Shown here: positions 22,550-41,668 of the stretch, one piece after another
Layout of the letters: each line of letters begins with the position of its first letter
Position numbering within the stretch: position 1 is the stretch's first letter
Source of the DNA: a virus
Length of the DNA: 57,950 nt
Virus record (IMG/VR): IMGVR_UViG_3300029787_000042
Span: 1 to 57,950 of that record
Strand: one strand, 5' to 3'
Program-made: the position numbers and the translations under genes
The notes under the pieces: generated by a model
Database searches by the model: none
What the model was told of the DNA's origin: nothing
Seen by the model: the letters and a program-made list of their open reading frames with translations, nothing else

Positions 22550-22777
22550 TCATAGAGTACGCCACACACGCACACCTAATTTCTCGTTTTCAGTTCTTAC
22601 TCTAAACTCCCCGGTCCAAGACTTATTCTTGAATATCTCCTTAACTTGTTTTAGTGTCTTATCTGTATTTACACAAGGTACAAAGACAGAAGCACCTATT
22701 ACCATGTTATCCCAATTAACGACTATCTTTACACCATCAGGATTGAGGTCGTCAATCTTCAGCATGCTCTGGCCCAT
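22550..22777 (-). CDS. hypothetical small protein, last gene of the early operon
   Basis: 75 aa, alpha/beta, with conserved-looking blocks DDLNPDGVKIVVNWDNMVIG and SWTGEFRVRTENEK. It overlaps the end of the primase-helicase gene by 26 nt; an internal Met at codon 5 would still overlap. Translational coupling to the primase suggests a DNA-replication accessory role, but I recognise no family. Followed by the terminator at 22481-22515. Confidence 0.7.
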   Translation of the reverse strand: MGQSMLKIDDLNPDGVKIVVNWDNMVIGASVFVPCVNTDKTLKQVKEIFKNKSWTGEFRVRTENEKLGVRVWRTL

Positions 22778-25571
22778 CTATACTTACACCAGAACAGTCT
22801 ATAGCTATGACCCTAGTAGCAGGTAGTTGAGTAGACGTGCCTTTAGTAAGTCTTATTACTACTGGTTTGGCATTCATCTTTTCTTTAAGGTCTTGAATAA
22901 AAGACCCGTAGTTTATCTGTTGTTTGCCGCACCATTTCTTTAATTGTTTTGGTACTAGGTATGCCATCTTAGTATCTGTTTCATACCTACCTACTAACCT
23001 AACTTTAGGATCTAACTCAGGTATGATTAATCCATCAAGACCGTTATCCTGACCTTTACGTAAATCGTCAGTGCTTTGGATTTTTAGTATGCTACCCCAA
23101 TGCTCGTGGATATAACTATTTAAAGTATCGTGCACAGGAGTGTTCATATCGCTAACGGCCCTCATATTTTCTGCTAATAACTTTAACACGTAGGCTTTTA
23201 GCTTTTTCATATTGTAGTTAACAAGCCCTAGACGTTTAGCTATTATCAATCCTGTAAGCGTAGCCGCTACCCCTGCTGACCAAAATCTATTCTCAGAAGT
23301 TAAGTTAGCTTCCTTATCAATCTTTATTTGTACTCTTTGTAGTAGAGCTTTTACTTCATCTAAATTATTAATTATAAACTGTATATATATCTTACCTGCT
23401 ACACCATGCACTTTCTTGATCCTTGCTTGGTGTGCATCTGTTTCTTGCTTAGTCTCTGACTTTTTAAACAACTTAACAGCTTTGGTCTCTAATATCCTCT
23501 GTGCCTCTGCCCTCGGTATGGTTTTAAACATACTTACCCTCTCTATAAAACTTGTATTACCAGTGCTCACAGATAACAGGTTCCACGGCTTACCACGAAA
23601 CCTTTCTACATTACTACCACCTGACATTCTGGCACGTTGTTTACCTCCTGATAATTGGTAAGCTAACTGAGATAACACTTCACCACTAGCGTTAGTTAAC
23701 TCGTCAAGGTATAAAGGTAAGTTGTGGTAGACCTCCCCCCTGTTCATTGTAGAGTTATTAGTGTCCTTCTCCTGCATAACAAACCCATCTGGCTCTGCCC
23801 ATACCGATGCCCCTACGAACATGGCGGTAGTCTTACCTTCTCCACCTGTACCATGTATGTGAAACCCTGCGCAAGCTATAGGGGAGAACTCCATCAAAGG
23901 AGCACCGAAAGAAGTCCCTACTATGTATTGGTGTAATTCAAATCCTTCTCTATCGTAGAAGTTAGCCAATAACTTCCATTCATCTAAAGTTCCCTTAGGT
24001 TTAAACAAATCAAACAAACCTGCTGTAGCAGTAGAAGGGGGATTAGATCCTACCCTATCTCCAAATACTTCTTTATCCCCAATAACAAATGATTTGTATG
24101 TATCGTCTGTCCAACCAAATTGTCTGCGGGCCTCATCAGCTACATTAGTAGCCTGTAACTCGTTTACCCATGCTGTTGTATAAGCCATAAGATCGTCCAT
24201 TTTAGTCACTGCCACCCCCTGCATAGACATTTGTTTTCTAAATTCATCACGGGAAGTGACTGCTGTTAAAGGTATTGTAAACTCTCGCACACCATCTACA
24301 GGCAAATGTAAACGCATGACTATAGACTCGCCTACTTCTTGATCGCGTATACGTTTTGTAACATATAAATCGTTATGATATATAAGTCTTTCGTCTATCT
24401 CGCCGTCAGAAGTTTTAGTTCGTAGGTATATACCTCCGTTAGCCCCTCTAAAATAAGGTTTAGGGTATGTAGGTATAGAGTACGTAGCCGTATCACCAAA
24501 CTCATCTTCAGAATCTACAAGAACTTCTACCATATTATCTTCTTTGCTAGCCTCTACCACAGTGCGACCTAGCAATATGGGGGACTTAATTTTGCCCCAA
24601 TGTTTACAATCAGTACATACCTCAGGGTTGAATTCATCAAAAGAAGTACAAAGATACGGCCCTTTTATGTTTTCTAACTTGTCTGCGGTAGCTTCTGGAG
24701 AATAATTAGGATGTTTTTGAGATATAAACTTAGCTCCACTGACGCCGTCAGAACAAAACTTTGCTATTGATAACCCTGCCCTCCACAAAGGCTCACTGCA
24801 ATTTTCTTGGTCAGTGGCTATTATTTTTATCTGCTCACACCCTACACCTGCTATAGTTTTTTCAATGATAGTCTTAAATTTATTATCGTTGTTTTTTATT
24901 AACGCCTCCCTAAACGCGCTAACCCCACCTTCTATCTTTGTAGGAACTGGTATCATATCCATACCAAGTAACTCAGCAAACGCGTCAAAGTCTACAGGCT
25001 TGGGTACATCCCCTACAAAGTAGTCAACAGGAGAAGGAGGGCTAGTCTTATAGTTATGTGTCTTAGGCACTCGTAGTATTCTAGCGGCATCAGCAGTCAC
25101 TGCGGGATCTGCCAAGAGTTTGTGAGTACCACATAACTTCTTTAGGTGTTCTGCTACAGGAACCCAATCAAGTGGAGATACATCTTCAGAGAGAAACCAA
25201 TAAGCATGTACGCCTCGTCCTGAGTTTATAAGCATAGGCTTTGGTAAAGAAAGAGTATTACAAAATTGAGATAATGCTTTTATTGCTTGGTCTTGGTCGG
25301 GGTAGTCTTTGGTAACACCGCAGTCAAGATCAAGGAAAAAAGATTTAAGTTTGTTTACGTTGTTAACTTTACGTGAGTTATCTTCGTTGAATGTTGCTAA
25401 GGCAAAGTAAGTATCATAGCCTTGAGAGTCTAATTTTTGTGCCGCGTCTACCACATGATCTATAGAAGAATAAAACTTTTGAACTCTCCTATCATCTTCT
25501 GTGCGAAATGCAAACACACAGTAGCGACCTTCACTACTAAGAGTATTCTGCAAAAAAGTTTTAGTATCCAT
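22752..25571 (-). CDS. bifunctional AEP-type primase / DUF927 helicase
   Basis: 939 aa. N-terminal primase-polymerase (archaeo-eukaryotic primase) signatures: hDhD at FFLDLDCG (D81, D83), the SxH-like block NSGRGVHAYW (116-125), and DAARILRVP (161-169). A Cys cluster (C308, C319, C322) may bind zinc. C-terminal helicase with Walker A GTGGEGKT (574-581), Walker B YLDE (D623/E624) and a sensor-like STGN (669-672), typical of DUF927. It should lay primers and unwind DNA at the fork, working with the family A polymerase and SSB encoded upstream. The two activities are fused in one chain, a common economy in phages and plasmids. Start at 25571 ATG. Confidence 0.88.
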   Translation of the reverse strand: MDTKTFLQNTLSSEGRYCVFAFRTEDDRRVQKFYSSIDHVVDAAQKLDSQGYDTYFALATFNEDNSRKVNNVNKLKSFFLDLDCGVTKDYPDQDQAIKALSQFCNTLSLPKPMLINSGRGVHAYWFLSEDVSPLDWVPVAEHLKKLCGTHKLLADPAVTADAARILRVPKTHNYKTSPPSPVDYFVGDVPKPVDFDAFAELLGMDMIPVPTKIEGGVSAFREALIKNNDNKFKTIIEKTIAGVGCEQIKIIATDQENCSEPLWRAGLSIAKFCSDGVSGAKFISQKHPNYSPEATADKLENIKGPYLCTSFDEFNPEVCTDCKHWGKIKSPILLGRTVVEASKEDNMVEVLVDSEDEFGDTATYSIPTYPKPYFRGANGGIYLRTKTSDGEIDERLIYHNDLYVTKRIRDQEVGESIVMRLHLPVDGVREFTIPLTAVTSRDEFRKQMSMQGVAVTKMDDLMAYTTAWVNELQATNVADEARRQFGWTDDTYKSFVIGDKEVFGDRVGSNPPSTATAGLFDLFKPKGTLDEWKLLANFYDREGFELHQYIVGTSFGAPLMEFSPIACAGFHIHGTGGEGKTTAMFVGASVWAEPDGFVMQEKDTNNSTMNRGEVYHNLPLYLDELTNASGEVLSQLAYQLSGGKQRARMSGGSNVERFRGKPWNLLSVSTGNTSFIERVSMFKTIPRAEAQRILETKAVKLFKKSETKQETDAHQARIKKVHGVAGKIYIQFIINNLDEVKALLQRVQIKIDKEANLTSENRFWSAGVAATLTGLIIAKRLGLVNYNMKKLKAYVLKLLAENMRAVSDMNTPVHDTLNSYIHEHWGSILKIQSTDDLRKGQDNGLDGLIIPELDPKVRLVGRYETDTKMAYLVPKQLKKWCGKQQINYGSFIQDLKEKMNAKPVVIRLTKGTSTQLPATRVIAIDCSGVSIDGPEHAED

Positions 25572-25662: not shown

Positions 25663-26361
25663 TTAGTCGTCCCACTCATCAACGATTGAGGCCAAGTCCT
25701 TGTCGGCTTCTTTTGGCGCTACTGTTTTTGTTTTAGCGACCTTTTTTGGCTCTTTTACTGGAGCAGGTTCATCTTCAAAAACATCGTCACTTACTTTAGG
25801 TGTAGGTTTAACAGTTTTAAATGGATTATCACTTGCCTCCATTTCAAATCCATCTACTGCACTAAACGGTGATGCAGACTCCAATGGTACATACTTAACA
25901 ACCTGTACTGCGCGTAATCGGATAGATACACCTGCTTCACGCATATAATACGGATAAAATGTTACCGCTACATTGCCTGTACTGCCAGTAGTCAGTTTAA
26001 AATCTTCAGGCAGTTCGGTGCTCTTAGCATCATACTGTTTAGGCCGTGCTGTAGCATCTTTACCATACGCCGCTTTAAGCACGGCTTTACCTACATAAGT
26101 TCCATCTTCTTGTTTATCAAATGGAAAGTCAATCTTATCAGGCCAATTTTTTTCTTTAGCCGCTAAATAAGATTCTGTCATCTTCGCATACAAAGCTTTG
26201 GCTTGATCTTTCTCCATGCGAAACTTTGTTTCATACTTTGCCCCATCATCAAATGGATCACACGGCACACTTTTACCGTTCTCTCCTGCCGCAGAATCAA
26301 ACTTATACGGCTGATTAATACGTGGATAAAGTATTTCTACATTTTCAATAATATAACTCAT
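25663..26361 (-). CDS. single-stranded DNA-binding protein, DUF2815 / gp2.5-like
   Basis: 232 aa. An OB-fold-sized N-terminal domain (~1-165; LYPRINQPYKFDSAAGENGK near the start, VAVTFYPYYMREAGVSIRLR near the end) matches the DUF2815 ssDNA-binding family by recognition. A flexible Lys/Pro/Thr tail (~175-220) ends in the acidic SIVDEWDD, the kind of C-terminus that SSBs such as T7 gp2.5 use to bind polymerase and helicase. It sits beside the primase-helicase gene. It contains SPFSAVDGFE near 165-175, a motif shared with the next upstream gene product. Confidence 0.82.
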   Translation of the reverse strand: MSYIIENVEILYPRINQPYKFDSAAGENGKSVPCDPFDDGAKYETKFRMEKDQAKALYAKMTESYLAAKEKNWPDKIDFPFDKQEDGTYVGKAVLKAAYGKDATARPKQYDAKSTELPEDFKLTTGSTGNVAVTFYPYYMREAGVSIRLRAVQVVKYVPLESASPFSAVDGFEMEASDNPFKTVKPTPKVSDDVFEDEPAPVKEPKKVAKTKTVAPKEADKDLASIVDEWDD

Positions 26362-26379: not shown

Positions 26380-27063
26380 TTAGTTTGCATCTACTTCAAA
26401 ACCATCTACTACTCCAAACGGAGACACAGAGTTGTTTACTGGTGATACATCTAAAGTAATAGCTTTTAATGTATCTGAATGATTAATCATTTTTCGCACA
26501 GTATCTAACTCCATAGCCCCAAGAGAACGCACAGGCTTGAAATAAAGTTTTGGTACAACACTTCTCTCGTCAAAATACATTCTCGTAAGAACGTTTGTAG
26601 CTACAGCGTTACGCCCTGACAAGAACTTGACGTAACCCTGCATGGTCATGTGCCCACCATGCCCTTTACCATATATAGAAGTAGCAGGTAATTGGAGTTG
26701 ATATACTTCATCTAACTTATCCTCAAACGCTACTGCTAGGCGTTGCGAAAACCTACACGCACGTCCTCCATTACTACCCGAACCGCGTATATTTTTTGCA
26801 CAATCTAGACAACGATTAGATTGTTTTTGTTCTTTGGGGACATCTACAGACGGCCTCTGTGTATCTGCTGACCAACATAAAGGAAACGCAACCTTGTTAG
26901 GGTCGTATGCATCCTTATAGTAAGTACGAGACACGGGAGCCGCATTCATAATAACAATATCCCTAAAGCTATCTATATTCGTGTTAACTTCTTTACCGCT
27001 AATAATCTCACTAAATCTGCTACCACGAATACTAATTCGACGTAGGCCAGAGCCTTCATCCAC
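26380..27063 (-). CDS. SSB-like companion protein with Cys cluster
   Basis: 227 aa, overlapping the HTH gene upstream by 1 nt. A region with spaced cysteines (about residues 63, 85, 88 and 103; RCLDCAKN, then GGRACRFSQ) could be a zinc ribbon. It ends SPFGVVDGFEVDAN, nearly the same as SPFSAVDGFEMEAS in the neighbouring SSB, suggesting the two share a fold or a common partner. Similar proteins lie next to DUF2815 in marine phages. I infer a ssDNA-binding or recombination-mediator role, unproven. Confidence 0.72.
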   Translation of the reverse strand: MDEGSGLRRISIRGSRFSEIISGKEVNTNIDSFRDIVIMNAAPVSRTYYKDAYDPNKVAFPLCWSADTQRPSVDVPKEQKQSNRCLDCAKNIRGSGSNGGRACRFSQRLAVAFEDKLDEVYQLQLPATSIYGKGHGGHMTMQGYVKFLSGRNAVATNVLTRMYFDERSVVPKLYFKPVRSLGAMELDTVRKMINHSDTLKAITLDVSPVNNSVSPFGVVDGFEVDAN

Positions 27064-27320
27064 TAGATGTCCTCGTCAGTAAATGCTTCGGTAACTAAAT
27101 CCGCAGTATTTTCTGAGGCATCAAGACTTTCAAAATCCACACTTTCTTCTTCAGGTTTCAACGCATTGGTGACATCACTTATCCTAAATCTATAGGTGTT
27201 ACCAACTTTTAAGTAAGCACTTTTAGGTATATGCTGTTGCCGTATCCAAGCGCGAATGGTTGATATTGATACTGAGAAGTGCTTTGACACTTCTTCAATA
27301 GGTACAAATTGTTCACTCAT
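27063..27320 (-). CDS. excisionase/MerR-type helix-turn-helix protein
   Basis: 85 aa. Residues 5-55 (FVPIEEVSKHFSVSISTIRAW, then IPKSAYLKVGNTYRF) form a winged HTH of the excisionase (HTH_17) type: recognition helix in STIRAWI, then a wing. The C-terminus is acidic (SVDFESLDASENTADLV). It overlaps both neighbours by 1 nt, so it is part of the replication operon rather than a lysogeny module; no integrase was found. It may regulate early transcription or assist DNA bending at replication sites. It is one candidate binder for the 18-bp palindromes. Confidence 0.75.
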   Translation of the reverse strand: MSEQFVPIEEVSKHFSVSISTIRAWIRQQHIPKSAYLKVGNTYRFRISDVTNALKPEEESVDFESLDASENTADLVTEAFTDEDI

Positions 27321-29400: not shown

Positions 29401-29543
29401 GGTCGGGATGATAGGATAAGCACCTCAAGCTACCTGATTTTGTTGGGTTAAAGGAGAGAATATATAAGCTCCAAAACAATCTAGGGGTAGAGATCGTCCC
29501 AAACTATTTATTGACGCATCTAGGTAAGCGTCCACACAAAAAA

Positions 29544-30484: not shown

Positions 30485-30759
30485 TCCTTACTCTCCTCCG
30501 TAAGCCTTAATACTTCTTTAGTGGCGCTAAGTATGTTAGGCAATACTTGCCTTAAATTCTCATAAGGTATTACAATTTCTTGTGTATCAATCTCTTTGCC
30601 ATCTAAAAATCTAGACTGTTCAAAGACTAAAGCATAATCACAATCGCTACTTTGAGCTATAAATATTTTAGTAGACACACCATCTTTATCAAAATCATCA
30701 ATATCATCTTGTATATAAGGAGTTCTATCTATGTTAATAACTTTACCCATCAGGTTCAC
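30481..30759 (-). CDS. hypothetical small acidic protein
   Basis: 92 aa (89 if the Met at codon 4, MGKVINIDRTP, is used). It overlaps the DNA polymerase end by 17 nt and the nuclease start by 4 nt. Acidic, with a short beta-type core (TKIFIAQSSDCDYALVFEQS) and a C-terminal helix. No family recognised. Its place between polymerase and nuclease suggests a replication accessory. Confidence 0.65.
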   Translation of the reverse strand: MNLMGKVINIDRTPYIQDDIDDFDKDGVSTKIFIAQSSDCDYALVFEQSRFLDGKEIDTQEIVIPYENLRQVLPNILSATKEVLRLTEESKE

Positions 30760-32587
30760 AATCTCCGTAGGCTTTAGCTACACCAGACTCGCAATCTAAA
30801 GGTAGCCCTTCTGCCCAAGTAGGGGTTTTTCGCATACACGCTTCAATATATATTTGCGCTTCCTTTGCTTCTTCTATTGGCACACAACACGCTATCGAAT
30901 CGTGTACTGTTAAGACAGGACGGTACTTCTTAGCAATAGCTAACATCTGTTCAGCAATCACACATCGGGCTATGCCTTGACATACATTCTCTACTACCTT
31001 GCCACCGTATATCCTAGTTCGGCCTCGTCTTGTTTTATAAGTAAACTCTACGCCCTTTTCATTTTGTTGCCACCGTAAGTCACCATACTTCATAATGAGT
31101 CCAGAGGGTAATCTTATCCCACCATACTGATTCGTGACAACAGGCTTTATTATATCATTAGTTCCAAAATTCTGTGTCCGAGCACGAACCAACTCCAGTA
31201 GCATGTTCTGACAGTTACGCCATAACACGTTTATCTTCCAATTAGTCTTGCGGTATATTTTTATTACCCTACGAGCCTCGGCAATGTCCATGTGAACTCC
31301 CATACCTTTTAACTGCTCAGTAAATCTCACTGCGCCCATACCATATCCTGCGCCAAGTATGGTGGTCTTACCAACAAATCTTTGTTCTTTTGTTACCTCG
31401 TCCTCAGGTACGCCATAGATAATAGATGCCATTTTTATATATACATCTTCTTTGTTTGCAAACGCCGCTACTAAATCGTCTTGCCCTGCTAACCATGCAA
31501 GCACACGAGCCTCGATCTGAGATGAATCGCAATCTATTATTGTATAGCCTTCTGGAGCAACTATACTCTTCTTTAACTTCTTACCATGTGGTCCTCTACT
31601 AGGTAAGTTCTGTAAGTTAATCTTATCATCTCCACCCCATCTACCAGTGTGTGCGGCGTAATACCTTACAGGTACAGGTAGTAGTCCTCGCTTACATATA
31701 TCTATAAACCTTTGTGTACGAGTTTCTTCCAACGTACTTTTATTACCTAACCGTGCATTTGCTAACGCTTGAACCTTATAATTAGGATGATCAAGTAATT
31801 GTTTAAACCCATCATCTGACTTGGCAAAGGCGAATGTACTCTTACCTGTAGTAGGGCTTATCTTCATAGGAGGTGCTACATCCAAGCCTTCTAGCAACTC
31901 AGCAAACTTAGGATTGCTCATCAGTTCTGACTTATCTACACCACAAGAAGTTATCAGGTCATCCTTAACTGCCTTAATACTTTCAAGATGTTGTTCTAAC
32001 AACCCTAAGTCTAGGTCTAGCATAGGTTCAATAAACATACGCAACGTAGTATCAATAACTCTAAGTTCTTGTCTAGGGAAGTTCTTACCCATGATCTTAA
32101 ACAGTTTGTAGGTCAGCTCTACATCATTAACGCAATAATCGCCGTACTTGTCTAAGGCTTCTTCTGAAAAGGAGTCACGTCTTTTTCCGATAGCGTCGAG
32201 TACCTCTGTTCCCTTAAGTCCAATGTCATACCTTTGAGATAACGCATGGAGACTGCCCCCAACTTCGACCCCATGTAAAGCACGGGCAATGCAAAGAGTA
32301 TCGGTATAGCGGCGAGGATGAACATCGAAACGCCAATTAAGAATGGCACCATCAAACATAGTGTTGTGAGCGAGTAAGACACTATCCGCCCAATTAAAAG
32401 TGTGTAAGTACCGCTTAAGTTCTTCATGTGATCCACTGGCCCACTCCGTATTTTCGTTGTTTACTTTTACTCCTACACCCACCACCTCAAATCTAGGGTC
32501 GCGTATGTAAGATTCGGTTGTCATTTTTCGTAATGAATATTCTTTATCATAATAAGTTTCAAAATCTACTGTTATTAAATCCATCAA
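30743..32587 (-). CDS. family A DNA polymerase with 3'-5' exonuclease
   Basis: 614 aa. Exonuclease motifs: Exo I VDFET (D8, E10), Exo II HNTMFDG (N75, D79), Exo III YCVNDVE (Y151, D155). Polymerase motifs: A = DSSQIEAR (D354, E359), B = KTTILGAGYG (K407 to G416), C = VHDS (H562-D563-S564). There is no 5'-3' exonuclease domain, as in T7-type replicases. L411 aligns with E. coli Pol I F762, and motif C has Ser where Pol I has Glu. This is the replicative polymerase, acting with the primase-helicase and SSBs of the same operon. Confidence 0.93.
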   Translation of the reverse strand: MMDLITVDFETYYDKEYSLRKMTTESYIRDPRFEVVGVGVKVNNENTEWASGSHEELKRYLHTFNWADSVLLAHNTMFDGAILNWRFDVHPRRYTDTLCIARALHGVEVGGSLHALSQRYDIGLKGTEVLDAIGKRRDSFSEEALDKYGDYCVNDVELTYKLFKIMGKNFPRQELRVIDTTLRMFIEPMLDLDLGLLEQHLESIKAVKDDLITSCGVDKSELMSNPKFAELLEGLDVAPPMKISPTTGKSTFAFAKSDDGFKQLLDHPNYKVQALANARLGNKSTLEETRTQRFIDICKRGLLPVPVRYYAAHTGRWGGDDKINLQNLPSRGPHGKKLKKSIVAPEGYTIIDCDSSQIEARVLAWLAGQDDLVAAFANKEDVYIKMASIIYGVPEDEVTKEQRFVGKTTILGAGYGMGAVRFTEQLKGMGVHMDIAEARRVIKIYRKTNWKINVLWRNCQNMLLELVRARTQNFGTNDIIKPVVTNQYGGIRLPSGLIMKYGDLRWQQNEKGVEFTYKTRRGRTRIYGGKVVENVCQGIARCVIAEQMLAIAKKYRPVLTVHDSIACCVPIEEAKEAQIYIEACMRKTPTWAEGLPLDCESGVAKAYGDCEPDG

Positions 32588-33239: not shown

Positions 33240-33372
33240 AATAGTTACCTCTTTGTTTTTGTTCCCAAATTTTTTGCTTGTCATTTATTACGAGCACCGC
33301 GCCATGACAGATAAAACCCAAAAAACCTAAAAATACTATGCTAAATATTATATTTATTATTTCCTCTAACAT
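33196..33372 (-). CDS. small single-pass membrane protein
   Basis: 58 aa with the ATG at 33372 (GAGAGGG ribosome site). Residues 4-27 (EIINIIFSIVFLGFLGFICH) form one membrane helix; the rest is a basic/polar cytoplasmic tail. Overlaps the VRR-NUC gene in another frame, but the ribosome site and membrane composition support it. Early small membrane proteins in phages often alter host membrane functions or superinfection; here that is only a possibility. Confidence 0.55.
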   Translation of the reverse strand: MLEEIINIIFSIVFLGFLGFICHGAVLVINDKQKIWEQKQRGNYYGNDSRSESKKQSS

Positions 33373-33389
33373 AATTAACCCTCTCTTAT

Positions 33390-33668
33390 TTATTTGTTTA
33401 TCCAAAAAACATTAGCGTCAATCCTCCTTCCTATACCACCTACCTCTTTAGTAGGAGGATTTGGGTCGCATAAAAACAACACCGCTAACCTATCTTGTAT
33501 CCAATCAGGTAATTTGTCTATAGAATCGTACACACCATTGTCTGGTGAGTCAACACAATCCATACCTAAACATGATATTTCAACGGTATTGTTGTCACTA
33601 TGTATACACACGCGATGTACAGTAACATTAGAACCATATTTATATGTAAAGCTGTCACTGTGTAACAT
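33390..33668 (-). CDS. hypothetical protein
   Basis: 92 aa with the ATG at 33668, chosen because AAAGG precedes it by about 7 nt; the frame is open further upstream into the preceding gene. Mixed beta-rich sequence with several cysteines (RVCIHSDNN, then ISCLGMDCVDS) and a C-terminal GGIGRRIDANVFW. Overlaps the 320-aa gene by 14 nt. No family recognised. Lies in a run of unrecognised early ORFs, which is where host-takeover and anti-defence genes usually sit. Confidence 0.6.
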   Translation of the reverse strand: MLHSDSFTYKYGSNVTVHRVCIHSDNNTVEISCLGMDCVDSPDNGVYDSIDKLPDWIQDRLAVLFLCDPNPPTKEVGGIGRRIDANVFWINK

Positions 33669-34617
33669 AAAATATACCTTTGCTGTAACGATAACCAACA
33701 TTGTGTACATACTCACCTAGATCGGTTATAGAAAGCACAGATAATTTACCCTTAATATCTATTGGCAAAGTATCATCTGTATAAGTAGTAAGATCTCCAT
33801 CTAGGTTATTGGCATTTGAATCCCACGGACTAGCATTAAGATCTCTGGTAGGTGTTACATCAAATAATTGCTTCCCCCTGCGCTCATGGATACATACACA
33901 GTAAAAAGTTACAGGGTTTTTATGGTGCTCCATGTACGGTTCGTAGACGTTACGCATAGTGCTTAGTTGGTTAGAAAACTCTTCCGATAAAAACTGATAT
34001 TCAGAATCAGCTAAATGAAACAACTCAGTAAATAATTGAGGTAGGTTTTTATAGTGCCCAACACTTTCCGTAAACGGTTTCGTTGCTTCGTGTAAAGCAC
34101 GTCTGAGAGTATCCTCATGGCTTTTAACACCCTCCGTCACTCCCTCCTTACTGAAGTCTATTATCTCTTTGGCATTGAATGGTGACAAATATCGCTTGGC
34201 ATTACGCACCGCTATGTCTAGCTTACTTGTCATAGCTATATAATGTTGTTCTCTGAGATAATCATACTTGTTGTTTCGTATTTTGCGTGAATAAACGCAA
34301 TACATATTTTTGCCATCACCATCTACTTTGTAATCTCCATAGGCTATCCAACCCCAACACCATTCATCTGTGTCTGTATACACATATATCCTATCGGGAC
34401 GTAGGTTATTCTTTGCGTAGGTCACACCATCTCGTGGATTAAAAACCTTCCCTGCAAACTTGATATAAGGAAATGCTTTACGTACCTCTTTCATAAACAT
34501 AATAACGTATTGGTTGTTACCGTCTTGGCTTAGTTCATCCTCAGTAAACTCACGTATACCCCTACCATCAACCATATCACCTATCTCACTCACCCTTACT
34601 TGTTTTCTCTGATTCAT
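33655..34617 (-). CDS. hypothetical early protein (320 aa)
   Basis: Start at ATG 34617, 7 nt after AGGAG (a GTG one codon earlier is less well spaced). It is aromatic-rich alpha/beta in the first half (FPYIKFAGKVFNPRDGVTYA; DEWCWGWIAYGDYKVDGDGK) and helical in the middle (~155-225). Residues ~45-120 look like a compact globular domain. No catalytic motif identified. Proteins of this look occur upstream of CobS/CobT-like genes in other marine phages as far as I recall, but no function is known to me. Confidence 0.7.
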   Translation of the reverse strand: MNQRKQVRVSEIGDMVDGRGIREFTEDELSQDGNNQYVIMFMKEVRKAFPYIKFAGKVFNPRDGVTYAKNNLRPDRIYVYTDTDEWCWGWIAYGDYKVDGDGKNMYCVYSRKIRNNKYDYLREQHYIAMTSKLDIAVRNAKRYLSPFNAKEIIDFSKEGVTEGVKSHEDTLRRALHEATKPFTESVGHYKNLPQLFTELFHLADSEYQFLSEEFSNQLSTMRNVYEPYMEHHKNPVTFYCVCIHERRGKQLFDVTPTRDLNASPWDSNANNLDGDLTTYTDDTLPIDIKGKLSVLSITDLGEYVHNVGYRYSKGIFYVTQ

Positions 34618-34627
34618 CACTACTCTC

Positions 34628-35551
34628 CTAGTAATCTGTTGTTATAGTAGTAAACCCACCATGCTTATTGACTAACGTATTTACCTTTCTCCTAAAAGCC
34701 TTCGCATCATCGCTTAACTTATGCTCCACCCAAGTATGTGTTTCGTAATCATAAGTTCGTTGACCGTTATCTTGAAGTTGCGCTATACACTCAATGGCTA
34801 AATCAACATACAGAGGGTCATCGGGGGTGTGCAATAACTTCAAAAAGTTTGTTTGAGCAGCTTTTTGAGTCTTTAAGTCTTGCCAATATGAATGGTGTGG
34901 CGCACTTATACCCAAAATCACACACTTATCCCTGCGCTCTTGCCAATTAGTCGGGGTGTTATCCTCTAACAAAGGCAACATATTCCACATCCACTCACAA
35001 AAGTTATTAATAGCTTCTTTGTGTGCTTTTTTGGCTTCTTTATCCACTCTTGGTCGCGGTATGGTATGTTCATCGCCCACCCAAATCCAATCATGTAAAG
35101 GGCTAGGTCTAGTTATCTGTATACCACGTTCATCCTTCAAGTCTGTGCGTTTAGGTAAATATCTTTCTACCCATTCAAAGGGTTTTACATCTCTGTTCGG
35201 TATTTCAATAAACTGCTTGCCTGATTTACCTACAAAGCCTACATTTTGCGGTAAAAACCTATCTAAGAATGAATATATGGATGTGTGCGCCCACTGACCT
35301 ACACCATTTTTAATAGTCACAACTTCATAACCTGAGACCAGTTCCCATGTGATACAGTCCTCACATCTGTCACCCCAATCGGTTATGTTTAAAGAATAGC
35401 AAGTATCTGATAACTTACTAATGCGCTCGAAAGTTCTAGCGCGGTCTGCCATAGGTCGCACATCTTCTTTCCTACCACGTATAGGTTTTATGCTTTCCCA
35501 ATGCGCTTCTACATGTTTAAAACTTTTTAACTTAACATCATACATAGCCAT
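34628..35551 (-). CDS. hypothetical early protein (307 aa)
   Basis: 307 aa with a strong ribosome site (AAGGAG, 8 nt spacing). Trp-rich (HWESIK, WGDRCEDCITWEL, VERYLP) with one C-x2-C pair (RCEDCI) near residue 62-65 and a long helical second half. The start shares a pattern with other phage proteins that open with a short beta strand (AMYDVKLKSFKHV). I do not recognise the family and see no catalytic signature. Cotranscribed with the MoxR/VWA genes upstream. Confidence 0.7.
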   Translation of the reverse strand: MAMYDVKLKSFKHVEAHWESIKPIRGRKEDVRPMADRARTFERISKLSDTCYSLNITDWGDRCEDCITWELVSGYEVVTIKNGVGQWAHTSIYSFLDRFLPQNVGFVGKSGKQFIEIPNRDVKPFEWVERYLPKRTDLKDERGIQITRPSPLHDWIWVGDEHTIPRPRVDKEAKKAHKEAINNFCEWMWNMLPLLEDNTPTNWQERRDKCVILGISAPHHSYWQDLKTQKAAQTNFLKLLHTPDDPLYVDLAIECIAQLQDNGQRTYDYETHTWVEHKLSDDAKAFRRKVNTLVNKHGGFTTITTDY

Positions 35552-35563
35552 ATCTTTATCTCC

Positions 35564-35767
35564 TTATCCTTGTAATATTCTTGCCCACGCTTGCGCTAGG
35601 CGTTCTCTGTCATCGTCTATCCAAGCAAATTGCTTTCGAGCTTCTGCACTAGCATGTGAGGCTCCAGAGTTCATACTGTCTAGTTTGTACTTCACAGCTT
35701 TCTCCACTTCCTCTACTGCTGTATCCCACTCCATTCGGCGTTTCAAAAAACTATCAAAGTCATCCAT
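35564..35767 (-). CDS. hypothetical small helical protein
   Basis: 67 aa starting at the ATG in TGATG shared with the stop of the VWA gene, so translation is coupled to it. Highly charged and helical (FLKRRMEWDTAVEEVEKAVKY; WIDDDRERLAQAWARILQG). No family recognised. The coupling suggests it works with the VWA protein. Confidence 0.65.
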   Translation of the reverse strand: MDDFDSFLKRRMEWDTAVEEVEKAVKYKLDSMNSGASHASAEARKQFAWIDDDRERLAQAWARILQG

Positions 35768-36987
35768 CACATATCCTCCAGTCTTATGTGTACTGCTTTA
35801 CCTGTGCTTGGCACAGCTTCCTTGTGATCTAAGATTGCCCACAATACTGGACATTCCCAATCACCCCAACTACCAAACAAGTAACCGTCTGTCAATACAA
35901 TGGTCGCTTGTGGTTTGATGTTGTTCTCTTTCATGTATTCGGTAACACATACAACGTCCGTGCCACCACCTCCACGCGGCTTGGTAGACTGCATTAGCTG
36001 ATCTAGTTCGTGCATACCGTACACTTCATCGCGTACTACCGTACAACCCCAATACAGTATGCGCACCTTGTCGGGTCTTACCGTGTCACATATACATTTG
36101 ACCTCAGTAAGCATGGCTGTCAGAGCGCGTTGCTCCACCGAACCTGATGTATCAATAGCTAGTACCAACTCATTGACCTTTTCACTAACACCACTTGGCA
36201 TGTAGATACCCTGACTCATTAGCCTACGGTTAGGTCGAGAGTATGTAGAGTAGTCATTACCCACACACGTAGCATAAATAAACTCACGCAACACCTCACG
36301 CCAATCGACTTGAGGCTGTAACAGTTCATCGAGTGACCTTGCTTGATTTGCGCCCATCTTACCTGCTGACATAGCACCCTGACGTATAGCCTCGTCAATA
36401 TCTCTAGCTAGATCACGCTGTTCATCAGCGGATAGTTCTTGCGCACCTTCAAAATCGTGCTCATCAAAACCACCATTGGTATCTAAAACACCGCTGTCGG
36501 TGTCACCTCCTGACTCGTTATCCTGTTTCTTCTTGCGTAGTATCTTGAACACTTGAGCTGTATCCATACCTCGGTACTGCTCATCGACTAGCCCACCTTC
36601 GGGTAGTTCGGCAAACCGTACACCCCTTTCATCGGGTGGGTTCTCGTCTAAGATTTCAAGGTTGATAACATAGTCCATAGCCATGTTTGCAAGTTGAGCG
36701 TCAATCTCCCATAAGTGTTTCCACGTATGAAGATGTCGATACATCTTGTGTTTGTTCTCGTGAAGAGCCAAACCACGTAACTTAGCATCATTGATACCCT
36801 TGACAAACTCACGTCCATACTTCTCATCACGTCCATTGGTACATGCGGTAGGTATACTCTCATCAATAACCTTGTCACCGATCATCAGCACCCCTGCTAA
36901 CGCTGTGTACTTTTGTTCGCTGATAATAGCGACTATAGCTTTCTCTAGCCGTTGCTCCTCAGTCAACACTCCATTAAGTGTAAGCAT
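35767..36987 (-). CDS. VWA-domain protein with N-terminal HEXXH (DUF2201/CobT-like)
   Basis: 406 aa. Residues 76-80 read HENKH, a zinc-peptidase HEXXH in the N-terminal domain. An acidic linker follows (~155-190). The C-terminal von Willebrand A domain has a complete MIDAS: DTSGS (279-283), T343 in GGGGTD, and D367 in LTDGY. This is the VWA-like metallopeptidase arrangement of DUF2201 families. The gene lies 11 nt downstream of a MoxR-type AAA+ gene; such AAA+/VWA pairs form chaperone- or chelatase-like machines (CobS/CobT, RavA/ViaA). I infer one complex here; its substrate is unknown. Confidence 0.85.
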   Translation of the reverse strand: MLTLNGVLTEEQRLEKAIVAIISEQKYTALAGVLMIGDKVIDESIPTACTNGRDEKYGREFVKGINDAKLRGLALHENKHKMYRHLHTWKHLWEIDAQLANMAMDYVINLEILDENPPDERGVRFAELPEGGLVDEQYRGMDTAQVFKILRKKKQDNESGGDTDSGVLDTNGGFDEHDFEGAQELSADEQRDLARDIDEAIRQGAMSAGKMGANQARSLDELLQPQVDWREVLREFIYATCVGNDYSTYSRPNRRLMSQGIYMPSGVSEKVNELVLAIDTSGSVEQRALTAMLTEVKCICDTVRPDKVRILYWGCTVVRDEVYGMHELDQLMQSTKPRGGGGTDVVCVTEYMKENNIKPQATIVLTDGYLFGSWGDWECPVLWAILDHKEAVPSTGKAVHIRLEDM

Positions 36988-36998
36988 TGTTACTCTCC

Positions 36999-38081
36999 TT
37001 ACTTGTCAGCAGAAAACATGTAATTGTTTTGCATAGCCCATTCGGTGAATAGTTTGTTACTCATCACCAGTGACCGATGCGCGTAGGTATTAGCACGTAC
37101 ACCGTTGGCAAACATACCTTGCGCTTCCTTACTTAGTCGGGGTAGGTATTGCATGAATGGTGTGATCGTATCTTTAGCCATGTTACCTAGCGCACGATAC
37201 ACCACCATACATACTGCCGAGGCAGAGTCAGGTACTTTGGCGTTGGTTGGATCTTGCTTGATAGATTCCCATGATGGTAGTTGATCAGCCAACTTGACGA
37301 ATGCCACCAAGTCCATAGCACCACGATCACCGATAGTACCCATGAGTAAAGCTGTTAGGCTGTGATCATCAAACATGTGCCTCTCCTTGAGTATGTCACT
37401 AGCGGCTTCCAATGATCTTGGCGTAACAAAAGCTGTACGCTGTGCTAGGGGGTGGTTGATGTATGGATTGTCATCGGGGTTCTTCACATCCTCAAAGCCC
37501 TGTAGTATCTGAGGGAACTCACGTACGAATCCCAATACACTAGGCTCCCATTCGTGATTGATACCATACTCAATCAACTCGTCACTGGTAGACTTACGCG
37601 CACGTAGTATGACCATGCGATTACGTGCATGAGGTGGAATAGTATCGCCAACACCCTCTCCACCGAGGTTAGCCGTAGCAAACTGTATGCTACCTTCTGG
37701 CAATTTCTTCGTGCCCACTGTGCGCTCTAGCATAGTAACAAGTGTACCGTTCTTGACTGATTGGTTAGCCTTTGACCATTCATCCCACATAATAATCAAC
37801 GGCTTGCCGTGGTGAATACCGAACTCTTCATTGGGTAAGTATGTGACGTACCCCTCGGTGGTGTTGAGTGATGGTATGCTCAAGTCACCCAGATCTTTGG
37901 TAACACAGTTGAAGTAACAGGGTACATGGTTAGGGAACTTATCCGATAACATCTTTAGTAGTGATGTCTTACCATTACCCATATGCCCTTCGACTAGCAC
38001 ACATCGCTTGTGACCTACCGCACCAATAGCTTGAGCTATCTGGGTAAGCCCCATTTCATACATTTTACTTGCTTTCATCAT
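36999..38081 (-). CDS. MoxR/CobS-like AAA+ ATPase
   Basis: 360 aa. Walker A GHMGNGKTS (32-40), Walker B IIMWDEW (D100/E101), sensor-1 N138 in FATANLGG, and arginine residues in PPHARNRM (149-156). This is the MoxR branch; cyanophage and T4-like phages carry related 'CobS' genes. Two adjacent ATGs (38081, 38078) follow AAGGAG; the second is better spaced. An 18-bp perfect palindrome lies 18 nt upstream. With the VWA protein downstream and DUF3150 upstream it completes the usual three-gene set. Likely remodels a protein complex in the infected cell. Confidence 0.88.
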   Translation of the reverse strand: MMKASKMYEMGLTQIAQAIGAVGHKRCVLVEGHMGNGKTSLLKMLSDKFPNHVPCYFNCVTKDLGDLSIPSLNTTEGYVTYLPNEEFGIHHGKPLIIMWDEWSKANQSVKNGTLVTMLERTVGTKKLPEGSIQFATANLGGEGVGDTIPPHARNRMVILRARKSTSDELIEYGINHEWEPSVLGFVREFPQILQGFEDVKNPDDNPYINHPLAQRTAFVTPRSLEAASDILKERHMFDDHSLTALLMGTIGDRGAMDLVAFVKLADQLPSWESIKQDPTNAKVPDSASAVCMVVYRALGNMAKDTITPFMQYLPRLSKEAQGMFANGVRANTYAHRSLVMSNKLFTEWAMQNNYMFSADK

Positions 38082-38098
38082 TTACTCCTTATCGTTTT

Positions 38099-38116
38099 GT
38101 TATAACATGTTATAAC
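38099..38116. promoter_or_regulatory. 18-bp palindromic regulatory site, copy 1
   Basis: GTTATAACATGTTATAAC is a perfect palindrome made of two GTTATAAC octamers separated by AT. It sits 17 nt upstream of the MoxR start. On the - strand it is followed by AAAACGATAAGGA, closely matching copy 2. It could be an operator, or two overlapping -10-like TATAAC boxes. Confidence 0.65.
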
Positions 38117-38258
38117 TTTCTAATATGCGACCCTTGCGAGTCACGACTTGGTAATACGCTACGCGAGGGGTTCGACCCTTCGGTATCCGCATTTCTTTGT
38201 AGTGTTTGGTGCGCTTGTAGTTGCGCACACGTAACACCGCTTGACCGTAACTATTCAC
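38100..38258 (-). CDS. hypothetical small basic protein
   Basis: 52 aa with a GTG start at 38258, chosen because AAGGAG lies 7 nt upstream and it then begins after the previous gene's stop; the frame is open further upstream. Very basic (RVRNYKRTKHYKEMRIPKGR). The C-terminus is encoded by DNA that includes the 18-bp palindrome (its stop lies inside the site). No family recognised; a nucleic-acid-binding role is possible. Confidence 0.5.
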   Translation of the reverse strand: MNSYGQAVLRVRNYKRTKHYKEMRIPKGRTPRVAYYQVVTRKGRILESYNML

Positions 38259-38269
38259 CGACTCTCTCC

Positions 38270-38473
38270 TTAGTCTTGACAATCGACACATCCCTTACGT
38301 GTCCAGTCAAAAGTACACTGTTCAGTTAGTGGCGTTTCTTCTTCACACTCCACCCACTCTGTATCCATAATATCTGGGTGGTCGAAATCATAGACAGCCT
38401 CACCCATTATGCACTCTGTATCGGCACTATCTTTTACAGTCAGCTTTACTCTCGCGTACATTATCTTAGCCAT
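38270..38473 (-). CDS. hypothetical small acidic protein with Cys-rich end
   Basis: 67 aa from ATG 38473, which has GAGGAG 7 nt upstream; the open frame extends further but without a site. Acidic (YDFDHPDIMDTEWVECEEET) and ending in three cysteines (EQCTFDW, KGCVDCQD) that could bind metal. Overlaps the upstream gene by 8 nt. No family recognised. Confidence 0.55.
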   Translation of the reverse strand: MAKIMYARVKLTVKDSADTECIMGEAVYDFDHPDIMDTEWVECEEETPLTEQCTFDWTRKGCVDCQD

Positions 38474-38780
38474 GATTAATCTCCTCATATTTTCTGAGAG
38501 CTTCTTGAACAATAATAAACATTTTTATATCCATCCACGCATTTTGGATATCATCTGTTGGCTCATCTGCAAACTCAACCTCTCTTGTTATGACATCGTC
38601 TATTATTTTAACTTGATCAGAAATAGCCATCGAACATATACTTATTACTTCATCTTTGTTTTGGGCGTATCCTTTATAGTAAGCAAACTCAACTATCTTA
38701 AGTAATGCGTCAGATAGCCCGATACCTTCTTCGTTTTCACGCATAACGTTGCATTCTAAGAGTACTTCTTCAATGTCCAT
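38466..38780 (-). CDS. hypothetical acidic helical protein
   Basis: 104 aa, acidic and almost entirely helical by composition (EEVLLECNVMRENEEG; VKIIDDVITREVEFADEP). It begins 2 nt after the DUF3150 gene stop with a GGAGAT site. No family recognised. Part of the palindrome-led small-gene operon. Confidence 0.62.
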   Translation of the reverse strand: MDIEEVLLECNVMRENEEGIGLSDALLKIVEFAYYKGYAQNKDEVISICSMAISDQVKIIDDVITREVEFADEPTDDIQNAWMDIKMFIIVQEALRKYEEINHG

Positions 38781-38782
38781 GA

Positions 38783-39679
38783 TTACATCTCCAGTGATGG
38801 TAGTGTTGCGATAACTTTGTCCACCGCACGTTTGGTTTCGGCACGGAGAAACGCATCTTCACGCAATGCGTCAGGCGTTATTCCACGTAGCGTATCCTCT
38901 AGCTTCATAGCCATCGCAGTCATCTGCCGGTCATTTGTAACATTACACACGTTAAGTAGTTCTACTATGTCGGTCACGTTGTCAACCAAAGTATCACGAA
39001 AGATCTTCTTAGTATCACCCTTGGCGTAGTCTAAACGCTCAGACATATTACTCAGCACTTTGTAAGTGCGTTGCCATACGTCATTCATAGCAGAGTGCAG
39101 TTGCCTGTTGTAATACTCATTGTAATGATCTTCGAGTACTTGCTTCTGGTCGTTGCCTACATCCACACGAAAGTCACCCGCATCTGGCAATGGTATGTAA
39201 GATATGTTGAACGCGAACTTGCGAGAGATAGATTCTGTGGTCGGGTAATCGTCACGTACAAACAGATTACCTAGTCGTGCTTGCGCCCTGCTGATCTCCC
39301 AATCATAGTTGCTGATAAATGACTGTGCCATACCCTCGAACTCGTTTTGTAGCTCAGTCATCTGTTGGTGATATTTGAAATATGACTCTGTCGGTAGTAA
39401 CCGCATACCTGTATCGCTCCACGGCATTGTGGATTTGTAGTGTGTGTTGCGCGCGTTGGCGGTGAATTTGTGTATGGCAGTCAGCTCGTCACAGTTACCT
39501 AGTAACTTCTTATTGACTGATGCCGTACCTTTCTCTGCCCAGTTTTGATCAGTCACTTCGACTGATGCTGTCTTGTCCTTCTTGCGACCTGTCCATTGGC
39601 TAACCTGTAACTCTACTAGCATGGCGCTAGACCCGATAGATGGTGCTTCGACTTTAGGTGTTACGCTTGTATTGTTCAT
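38783..39679 (-). CDS. DUF3150 protein
   Basis: 298 aa. The N-terminal strand-like LVELQVSQWTGRKKDK followed by a long helical body fits the DUF3150 family, which is typically found next to CobS/MoxR ATPase and VWA genes in phages and plasmids. Residues ~60-230 are strongly helical (NEFEGMAQSFISNYDWEISR). AAGGAG site before the ATG. It is likely a structural or adaptor component of the MoxR-VWA machine. Assignment is by recognition plus the conserved neighbourhood. Confidence 0.75.
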   Translation of the reverse strand: MNNTSVTPKVEAPSIGSSAMLVELQVSQWTGRKKDKTASVEVTDQNWAEKGTASVNKKLLGNCDELTAIHKFTANARNTHYKSTMPWSDTGMRLLPTESYFKYHQQMTELQNEFEGMAQSFISNYDWEISRAQARLGNLFVRDDYPTTESISRKFAFNISYIPLPDAGDFRVDVGNDQKQVLEDHYNEYYNRQLHSAMNDVWQRTYKVLSNMSERLDYAKGDTKKIFRDTLVDNVTDIVELLNVCNVTNDRQMTAMAMKLEDTLRGITPDALREDAFLRAETKRAVDKVIATLPSLEM

Positions 39680-39689
39680 CTTCTTCTCC

Positions 39690-39857
39690 TTATCGTGTTA
39701 GTAAAAGGTATATGATTGCCCATAGGCTAGTAACGCAACCTAGTATTACAATCAACTCAGTGCCCACTTGTTTAAAGGCTCGCCAAAACTCTACCTTACG
39801 CATCTCGCGCTTGGTTACTATCTTGGCTTGTCTGTCCCACAGTCTGATGTCTCTCAC
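39690..39857 (-). CDS. small C-tail-anchored membrane protein
   Basis: 55 aa from GTG 39857, which overlaps the upstream stop as GTGA and has AAGGAG 7 nt before it; a longer upstream extension in this frame lacks a site and overlaps a better ORF. Basic N-terminus (LWDRQAKIVTKREMRK) and a C-terminal membrane helix (TELIVILGCVTSLWAIIYLL). Unknown function, probably an inner-membrane protein made early. Confidence 0.6.
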   Translation of the reverse strand: MRDIRLWDRQAKIVTKREMRKVEFWRAFKQVGTELIVILGCVTSLWAIIYLLLTR

Positions 39858-40036
39858 TTCTCTTCTCCTTGCGTTTGTCTCCAGTAGTGTTTGAGTTGAG
39901 CGTCTAGCCCTGAGGTGATGGTATTTATCTTCTTGGCGCAATCTCTCAAGTTGTGATATCCATATGGGACTTCTTCTTTTTCCATAGCGAGTTCTCGCGC
40001 TCGTTCTTCTACAAAGGTTTGCCATTCATTGCTCAT
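39854..40036 (-). CDS. hypothetical small protein, first gene of the palindrome-led operon
   Basis: 60 aa with AAGGA about 8 nt before ATG. Charged and helical (WQTFVEERARELAMEKEEVP). It is the first ORF after the 18-bp site at 40058-40075, 21 nt upstream, and is coupled to the next gene by a 4-nt overlap. No family recognised. Confidence 0.62.
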   Translation of the reverse strand: MSNEWQTFVEERARELAMEKEEVPYGYHNLRDCAKKINTITSGLDAQLKHYWRQTQGEEK

Positions 40037-40057
40037 GTCTATATTCCTTGTCGTTTT

Positions 40058-40075
40058 GTTATAACACGTTATAAC
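40058..40075. promoter_or_regulatory. 18-bp regulatory site, copy 2
   Basis: GTTATAACACGTTATAAC: the two octamers are exact, with spacer AC. It lies 21 nt upstream of the 40036 start. On the - strand a TTGTTA hexamer precedes the first TATAAC by 16 nt, so it could contain a promoter -10 as well as an operator. Its downstream context (AAAACGACAAGGA) matches that of copy 1. Confidence 0.65.
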
Positions 40076-40200
40076 ATTTTGAGTTGTGGTAACAAGTTAC
40101 CGTGTAAAAGTGGACAGGATAAATCTCTCAGCCACATTACCATTATACAGGAGTGACAGCTTATGTCAAGTTATGGGTATACGTGTCAGGGAGTGGGGAG

Positions 40201-40600
40201 AAGTGTATTGTAATGTATTGTAATGTAATGTTACATAGTTGTGGTCGGTAAGTCATTGATATATCTACAATGTTACAAAGTTACATTTTACAGGGGAAAA
40301 TAGGTCGCTCGATCACCCCCAAATAAATTTGTAACAATGTAGAAAATTCTATGAGAGTTAAATACTATTTTGAAAATGTAACATTATAAGTATGTATTAA
40401 TAAAAACATATAAATAGATAAGATCTGATACTTTGACTATGGCAAACCTGCACAAACCTGCACATTATCTGATACGATAACGCACTAAAATATAATGTTA
40501 CATTTTGCCCTTAAATTTTGTAACATTATGTAACATTAGGGGGGGTATTTTGTAACATTGTATATTTATCAACGACTTACGTTGTAACAAAAGGCTCAAC
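40201..40600. other. non-coding AT-rich zone with TGTWACA cluster, candidate replication origin
   Basis: The 40037-40730 gap holds no convincing gene. TGTTACA/TGTAACA heptamers occur at 40229, 40271, 40330, 40378, 40496, 40519, 40529, 40551 and 40583, with a related AGTTACA at 40279. An exact 10-bp tandem, AAACCTGCAC, lies at 40444-40453 and 40454-40463. Dense short repeats in AT-rich DNA at the point where early and late transcription diverge resemble an iteron-type origin. The role is inferred. Confidence 0.5.
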
Positions 40601-40620
40601 GCGAAGCTGGAACTGGTATC
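40585..40620 (+). repeat. 36-bp direct repeat, copy A
   Basis: Begins TAACAAAAGGCTCAACGCG and ends AACTGGTATC. It matches copy B (40640-40675) at all but about four positions in the middle. The start-to-start distance is 55 bp. Only two copies exist, so it is not a CRISPR array. Confidence 0.85.
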
Positions 40621-40625
40621 ACAAT

Positions 40626-40643
40626 GTTATAACGTGTTATAAC
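40626..40643. promoter_or_regulatory. 18-bp regulatory site, copy 3
   Basis: GTTATAACGTGTTATAAC, octamers exact, spacer GT. It lies between the two 36-bp repeats and its last four bases (TAAC) form the beginning of copy B. It is not immediately upstream of a gene: the next leftward start is at 40036, and the nearest rightward gene starts at 41669. Confidence 0.6.
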
Positions 40644-40675
40644 AAAAGGCTCAACGCGGACTAGGAACTGGTATC
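40640..40675 (+). repeat. 36-bp direct repeat, copy B
   Basis: TAACAAAAGGCTCAACGCG, a variable seven-base middle, then AACTGGTATC. It abuts palindrome copy 3 and lies just left of the 40697-40722 terminator. Confidence 0.85.
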
Positions 40676-40696
40676 GTAGGTACTTTTTGATGGGCG

Positions 40697-40722
40697 AAAA
40701 AAAAGCCCCACCGAAGTGGGGC
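40697..40722 (-). terminator. strong rho-independent terminator after the 200-aa gene
   Basis: On the - strand GCCCCA-CTTCGG-TGGGGC (40705-40722) forms a stable stem whose loop closes as a UUCG-type tetraloop, followed by eight T. It separates the 40731-41333 gene from the origin-like zone and the operon further left, so those genes need their own promoter. Confidence 0.9.
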
Positions 40723-40730
40723 ATATTTGG

Positions 40731-41333
40731 TTAGTGAATTGGATCTGGTTGAAGTAGTGCGACAATCTTAGCTCTTAACTTGCTAATCTCCAGAGCGGTA
40801 TCTTCTGGCAGATTGTTAAGACACCAATTCTGGAGGTCGGTCTCTTTCTTGATTGCCTTCATCGCTAGTGCATTCGCCTCATCAACTACCTTATCGCCAG
40901 TCTTTGGCATAGATGGTTGCTGTGGTGCTCTCTCTGTTTTGGGCTTTGGAATCTGCCTATTCTTTAGATCGCGTTTAAACGCTGACATATAAGCACCGAT
41001 GGATTGTTGAACCTCGCGTTTGTCTATCTTACCTTGATCACTTAGCGCCTTAGTAGATGCGCCCAATAGATTGCGTTTAGTAGCACTAAACCCTGACACC
41101 ACGGCATCTTTCAATGCGTCATATAGTTCGGTGGTAGCTGTAGATTCGCCAGATTTACCATTGGGACTAATAAAGTCTGTCCAAAACATACCATCAGCAA
41201 TCAACTGATCAACTGCCTTGGTCTGTATACCTTCAGACTTGATAGCTAATTTAACTGCGTTACTTATTGATTCCTTGCCTTTGTTAGTCAGGCGCGTAGG
41301 TACTGCTCTTACTTCATTTATATATGTACTCAT
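40731..41333 (-). CDS. hypothetical protein, monocistronic, beside the origin-like zone
   Basis: 200 aa. Helical N-terminal domain (~1-120; NKGKESISNAVKLAIKSEGI; KDAVVSGFSATKRNLLGAST), basic Pro-rich linker (~122-145; RQIPKPKTERAPQQPSMPK) and a C-terminal helix pair (~146-200). It has its own terminator and an 18-bp palindrome 100 nt upstream. No family recognised. Its isolated unit next to repeats makes a replication-initiator or regulatory role plausible, for instance binding the palindromes, but no HTH is clear. Composition is close to that of its neighbours. Confidence 0.7.
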   Translation of the reverse strand: MSTYINEVRAVPTRLTNKGKESISNAVKLAIKSEGIQTKAVDQLIADGMFWTDFISPNGKSGESTATTELYDALKDAVVSGFSATKRNLLGASTKALSDQGKIDKREVQQSIGAYMSAFKRDLKNRQIPKPKTERAPQQPSMPKTGDKVVDEANALAMKAIKKETDLQNWCLNNLPEDTALEISKLRAKIVALLQPDPIH

Positions 41334-41668
41334 GTTTATATACTCTTTAGTTATTTACACTTCAACGTTATTGCTGAAGATGGTCACATAATAACAAGTT
41401 TACACATAAATACAATAGATAGCTTACAGAAAGTTATAACATGTTATAACAATCGACAATCTGACACTATTCGATACCTACCCCCTCCCCACCCCCCGCG
41501 CGACACATATGGGACTCTGTCAGTCTATATATTACTAATTCACACAAACAAATCGTATTTTTATGAGTTCAGACCCCCACCCCCTCTATATAAGAAACCC
41601 CCCACCTTGTTTTTGAAACACAATTGTAAAAAATTTTTTGTACAGTTATTCTGGGTTTAGGAGCTGCT
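41334..41668. promoter_or_regulatory. divergent intergenic control region
   Basis: 335 bp between the leftward 200-aa gene and the rightward late genes, with no gene seen. It holds palindrome copy 4 (41433-41450), two C-rich clusters (41481-41497 and 41574-41603), a TATATAAG element between C-runs (about 41587), and a good ribosome site (TTTAGGAG) for the 41669 gene. Promoters in both directions are expected here, but no single -35/-10 pair is convincing. Confidence 0.5.
41433..41450. promoter_or_regulatory. 18-bp palindromic regulatory site, copy 4
   Basis: GTTATAACATGTTATAAC, identical to copy 1. Copy 1 read on + and this copy read on - also share the next five bases (TTTCT), so the site is present in inverted orientation relative to copy 1. 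It is 100 nt upstream of the 41333 start. Confidence 0.65.

Follow-up and report, generated by a model that had tools for sequence, protein, structure and literature searches.

A conserved iteron element as the probable replication origin of a family of marine tailed phages

What is the function of a dense cluster of TGTWACA heptamers in the non-coding DNA of a marine bacterial virus? The cluster lies at positions 40201-40600 of an IMG/VR virus record of 57,950 bases, which was analysed over its whole length (hereafter the window); the record has no end repeats, and no DNA-level match to known phages was found for it. An earlier note on this DNA had read the cluster as an iteron-type origin of replication. 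This is the best-supported reading of the sequence, because more than 40 contigs from related marine phages have the same element in the same place, in conserved synteny, because its repeats form opposed arrays around an AT-rich centre, and because the phage encodes a homologue of SaPIbov1 Rep, the initiator helicase of a Staphylococcus aureus pathogenicity island (SaPI). Whichever phage protein binds its repeats, the element is very probably a replication origin.

The heptamer count is far from what local base composition would produce. TGTWACA occurs nine times within 361 bp (40229-40589; copies at 40229, 40271, 40330, 40377, 40496, 40519, 40529, 40551 and 40583), as against 10 copies in the remaining 57.5 kb of the window. 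Dinucleotide shuffles of 40201-40600 contain a mean of 0.32 and a maximum of 5 copies, with none of 5000 reaching nine, and even the commonest 7-mer of any sequence reached at most 8 across 1000 shuffles. Thus the earlier count of at least nine heptamers in about 360 bp stands, as do their enrichment over shuffled sequence and their AT-rich non-coding setting, a 665-bp region without genes (40026-40690) of 34% GC. Two other statements of the note need correction. TGTWACA is an odd palindrome and as a pattern its own reverse complement, so its occurrence in both orientations is trivial and carries no information; orientation is visible only in the longer unit AATGTTAC. The cluster was also placed where leftward and rightward transcription diverge, but its actual position is within the leftward block, flanked by the terminator of 40731-41333(-) and by the start of 39690-40025(-), and outside the divergence point at 41333/41669.

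Cumulative GC skew, which the note had proposed as a check, does change sign near 40-42 kb. The turn falls close to the element in the window, and no more than about 3 kb away from it in four relatives (G002, G004, G008 and G014); for the window and G015, both linear records, the absolute cumulative minimum is the start of the record. The sign change occurs where gene direction switches and is confounded by it, so the skew neither supports nor refutes an origin. Replichores drawn from the position of the element would be unequal.

Architecture and conservation of the element

The true repeat unit is a directional octamer, AATGTT-N-Y/G, of which TGTWACA is merely the version found in the window. 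Read with this unit, the element has the following parts.

40201..40600, core element: two opposed iteron arrays around an AT-rich centre, the putative origin
40212..40234, + strand, left array, rightward-pointing: AATGTATT at 40212, AATGTAAT at 40222 and AATGTTAC at 40227
40248..40279, left arm of a 32-nt inverted repeat, 91% complementary to 40549-40580
40250..40260, + strand, left box AAGTCATTGAT beside the left array, kept in most relatives
40269..40276, + strand, iteron AATGTTAC immediately past the left box
40378..40385, - strand, lone reverse iteron, left border of the centre
40386..40493, AT-rich centre (71% A+T), the likely melting region
40444..40463, + strand, two 10-bp tandem repeats AAACCTGCAC within the centre
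40494..40501, + strand, lone forward iteron ahead of the right array
40520..40559, - strand, right array, leftward-pointing: AATGTTAC at 40520, 40530 and 40552
40568..40578, - strand, right, inverted copy of the AAGTNNTTGA box
40583..40589, + strand, outermost TGTAACA

Relatives were retrieved by searches with TerL, the primase-helicase and the VWA protein, and the element of each contig was taken as its densest AATGTT/AATGTA cluster with no positional prior. Separate upstream-only scans put it in the same intergenic region. The conservation that the earlier note had proposed to look for is present. The opposed arrangement is general: across 45 elements, 186 of 222 units in the left half point rightward (84%) and 212 of 259 in the right half point leftward (82%), and the centre is often bordered by a single reverse and a single forward unit. 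The commonest distance between neighbouring units is 9-11 bp, followed by values near 20-22, 32 and 42 bp; these figures are descriptive because many of the contigs are related. The box AAGTNNTTGA lies about 10 bp ahead of an inner left unit in most elements. DnaA boxes occur only sporadically and are no constant feature of the elements. The possibility of an RNA element was set aside, as no Rfam family matched.

What varies is sequence on this layout. The variable base of the unit is A in the window and usually C elsewhere, but may also be T or G: AATGTTAC iterons are found in the window and in L058, L064, L124 and L183, AATGTTCC/CG/CT iterons in most other relatives, AATGTTTC in L239 and AATGTTGC in L248. 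The centres of the relatives are likewise AT-rich and carry 10-bp tandem repeats that differ in sequence by phage group at a constant period (autocorrelation at lag 10, z 10.2); these repeats might serve as start sites for the primase or as an additional binding site. Comparing the window with L058, its nearest relative, gives 91.7% identity for the element over 591 bp; the genes on either side reach 77% and 73%, and TerL 90%. That a non-coding element exceeds its neighbouring genes and approximates TerL in identity indicates selection on the non-coding sequence.

A like element also occurs further afield. The cultured and distant Pseudomonas phage Rollin, a relative open to experiment, encodes a protein 29% identical to the primase-helicase of the window and has an unannotated iteron element (L279:1-720, with the like element proper at 201-720) that combines eight TATGCAA iterons, a single AAGTNNTTGA box and, further out, the palindromes AAAAGGTAG...CTACCTTTT; its 7-mer count is less extreme if any 7-mer is allowed, with 15 of 2000 controls reaching it.

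The candidate initiator

The element stands in the leftward replication module (22752-41333). This encodes a PrimPol-DUF927 helicase, a Gp2.5-like single-stranded DNA-binding protein, a Cys-rich protein of 227 aa, a helix-turn-helix (HTH) protein of 85 aa and a Gam-like protein of 135 aa, further a SNF2 helicase, an exonuclease and PolA, and then an ATPase and a VWA/metallopeptidase pair. The genes that bear on initiation are these.

22752..25571, - strand, PrimPol (archaeo-eukaryotic primase, AEP) plus DUF927 AAA+ helicase, 939 aa, the proposed initiator and replicative helicase
25663..26361, - strand, Gp2.5-like single-stranded DNA-binding protein
27063..27320, - strand, HTH_17/excisionase-family protein, 85 aa, a rival iteron binder
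29813-30484, exonuclease
30743..32587, - strand, family A DNA polymerase

Of the two initiators that the earlier note had named, we favour the primase-helicase, which by profile and predicted fold is a homologue of SaPIbov1 Rep. Profile searches match the 939-aa protein to 8TCH (SaPIbov1 Rep; E 8.8e-19) and 5DGK (Cch; E 1.1e-12), and the best PDB matches of its structural model are again 8TCH (Foldseek E 2.2e-14) and 5DGK, followed by PrimPol domains. The motifs of the N-terminal PrimPol domain are visible in the sequence, and its modelled fold matches S-2L PrimPol and RepB'. The NCBIfam Cch1 model gives a weak match, far under its own cut-off. Cch, a DUF927 protein, and SaPIbov1 Rep are related, and it is through its C-terminal domain that SaPI Rep recognises an iteron origin (PMC7581432). 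In phage-inducible chromosomal islands (PICIs), the origin always has an AT-rich region with a set of iterons on either side (PMC6092414), and this published layout, which is that of the window element, leads to the origin reading. The initiator is thus probably the DUF927 protein, and by analogy with SaPI Rep it would bind these iterons.

The other protein that had been put forward, the 200-aa product of 40731-41333, is an unlikely iteron binder: no copy was detected in G002 or G015, two genomes with the same AATGTTAC iterons, and C-type relatives, whose iterons differ, do have it.

In the mechanism we propose, hexamers of the 939-aa protein would bind the two opposed AATGTTAC arrays through a C-terminal DNA-binding domain. 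The bound hexamers would melt the AT-rich centre and be loaded on the two strands, and the N-terminal PrimPol domain would prime synthesis. Handover to the phage family A polymerase and single-stranded DNA-binding protein would follow, with forks starting at the element and replication proceeding in both directions.

Covariation of operon proteins with iteron type was assessed by partial Mantel tests on 15-19 genomes, controlling for overall relatedness, and no protein clearly tracked iteron type. The strongest signal within the 939-aa protein comes from residues 871-930 (0.30, p 0.010, uncorrected and one of about 50 windows); it agrees with the SaPI precedent but is only suggestive and no proof. 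Several observations weigh against the 939-aa protein and the element forming such a pair. The whole protein does not follow iteron base type (partial r 0.03, p 0.38), and the exonuclease covaries with it too (0.31, p 0.009). The model of the C-terminal domain is weak (mean predicted local distance difference test score 57) and gave no significant fold match. The gene and the element are about 15 kb apart, whereas SaPI/PICI origins lie directly 3' of rep. Finally, Rhizobium phage RHph_TM29, which has a 23%-identical protein and a similar early operon, has no clear cluster.

Isolates with a related TerL (023Pt_psg01, HTVC027P and DSL-LC04) gave no match to the DUF927 protein. One of them, 023Pt_psg01, has a different replication module and carries an unrelated non-coding cluster of seven TGGCACA (L275:7450-7950), which is possibly that phage's own origin.

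Two further observations concern the gene content of the window. The 135-aa protein (27320-27727) bears the PHROGs label 'minor head protein', yet it is encoded in the replication operon and shows weak Mu Gam/Gp157 domain resemblance; the head label is probably mistaken. From 41669 on, rightward genes encode the terminase, portal and structural proteins, and two giant rightward genes (5499-12764 and 16146-22481; 2421 and 2111 aa) without confident family match likely encode virion proteins. A host link was sought by scanning bacterial genome contigs, with no match.

Flanking sequences and alternative explanations

The following features lie around the core element.

40057..40076, outer left palindrome TGTTATAACACGTTATAACA, operator-like
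40142..40169, - strand, sigma-70 promoter TTGACA-16-TATAAT (12/12 consensus) of the leftward operon, just outside the left array
40593..40620, + strand, direct repeat GGCTCAACGCG-n5-GGAACTGGTATC, copy 1
40625..40644, outer right palindrome TGTTATAACGTGTTATAACA, operator-like
40648..40675, + strand, direct repeat GGCTCAACGCG-n5-GGAACTGGTATC, copy 2
40698..40722, - strand, intrinsic terminator of 40731-41333(-)

The same promoter type is present in several relatives. Palindromes of 18-24 bp lie outside both arrays in many relatives and differ by phage group (TGTTATAACRYGTTATAACA in the window; TTGTATACATATGTATACAA, TGTTAGGGATCTCCCTAACA, CAGTATGGAATTCCATACTG and others in relatives). In the window, the palindrome GTTATAACRYGTTATAAC (18-20 bp) has four copies, at 38099-38116, 40058-40075, 40626-40643 and 41433-41450. 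All are confined to the early region near gene starts, those at 38099 and 41433 preceding leftward genes, and they resemble operators for a phage-specific repressor, although the proteins scanned included no recognisable integrase. The 200-aa protein, whose family was not recognised, may be the regulator that binds such operators: its closest relatives (L058, 73% identity; L059, 69%; L072, 54%; L083, 43%) are mostly in phages sharing the GTTATAAC operator. The direct repeat between element and terminator is kept across the phage family, with up to three or four copies in relatives, and a repeat ending in CTGGTATC has two or three copies right of the element in most relatives. We rejected GGAACTGGTATC as a genome-wide phage promoter, as its other exact copies (24943 and 55656) lie inside reading frames.

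An origin whose iterons are bound by another operon protein, which would recruit the DUF927 helicase much as lambda O brings in a helicase, would account for the same layout. The 85-aa protein is an excisionase/MerR-type DNA-binding HTH protein found in those relatives with a readable operon, the iteron spacing of about 10 bp fits a cooperative dimer filament, and the 227-aa Cys-rich protein has six columns separating A-type from C-type phages. Against this, iteron type shows no covariation with the HTH protein (partial r -0.20) or with the 135-aa Gam-like protein (-0.14), Rollin yielded no HTH_17 orthologue despite its like element (one open reading frame has a weak HTH_36 match), and SaPI-type Rep helicases bind their iterons directly. 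We consider such an adaptor unlikely. As for the 135-aa protein, a signal seen in 10 genomes (A-type identity 17 points above A-to-C) vanished with more genomes and control for relatedness, and it was dropped as an iteron binder.

The consensus promoter adjoining the left array and the operator-like palindromes on either side would also suit a control region of the leftward early operon, with the iterons as activator or repressor sites. Opposed arrays spanning about 380 bp around an AT-rich centre far exceed the need of one promoter, however, the right array being more than 300 bp upstream, and the palindromes recur at other gene starts (38099 and 41433) while the iterons cluster only at the element; we regard transcription control as very unlikely. 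We give still less credence to a packaging, partition or recombination site. Proximity to terS/terL, which lie 2-3 kb from the element in all relatives, and the clustered repeats that centromeres also show would fit one, but the window proteins scanned included no recognisable ParA/ParB or integrase, packaging sites are usually in or beside terS, and no known kind of packaging site has opposed arrays around an AT-rich centre.

Comparison with known replicons

Several replicon types share parts of this arrangement. Theta iteron plasmids of the RepA/RepE class combine repeats with an AT-rich melting region, but typically have a single direct array together with DnaA boxes, and their Rep is a winged-helix protein that lacks helicase activity. 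The alpha protein of phage P4, which goes with ori/crr, is, like the 939-aa protein, a primase-helicase fusion, and it recognises iterons, as is proposed for the window protein, but P4 needs two separated cis sites and its helicase belongs to another family. The Cch/Cch2 systems of the staphylococcal cassette chromosome SCCmec use the same helicase family (Cch), have a family A polymerase with the helicase in the Cch2 operon and carry repeats at the putative origin; they differ in that their helicases lack a fused PrimPol and their origin lies beside the operon.

The closest likeness is to SaPI/PICI replicons, with which the window phage shares an initiator helicase of the DUF927/Cch/SaPIbov1 Rep family, two iteron sets around an AT-rich region, and a layout that is kept while iteron sequence varies between relatives. 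It differs in being a full-size tailed phage with its own terminase, portal and structural proteins rather than a helper-dependent integrated satellite, in the fusion of primase to helicase, in the distance between origin (40201-40600) and rep homologue (22752-25571), and in the addition of the AAGTNNTTGA box, the 10-bp centre repeats and the outer phage-specific palindromes. Because two defining features, an origin beside rep and a helper-dependent satellite, are absent, we do not file the element as a member of that group; by analogy, it would work like a SaPI/PICI origin as a variant outside it.

A bolder extension, which we think unlikely, is that replication in the whole marine tailed-phage family relies on a SaPI-type replicon in which the origin has become separated from the initiator gene and iteron specificity switches between close relatives. 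Fast-changing operators would bracket this origin, a phage-specific repressor would switch early transcription and replication together, and plasmid-like dormancy without an integrase might be possible. Natural iteron variants are numerous while the layout stays constant, which makes the recognition code of the initiator family directly testable and offers a small self-contained replicon for further work. The joint occurrence of a SaPIbov1 Rep homologue and such an element in a marine phage family that is widespread suggests replicons common to satellites and phages.
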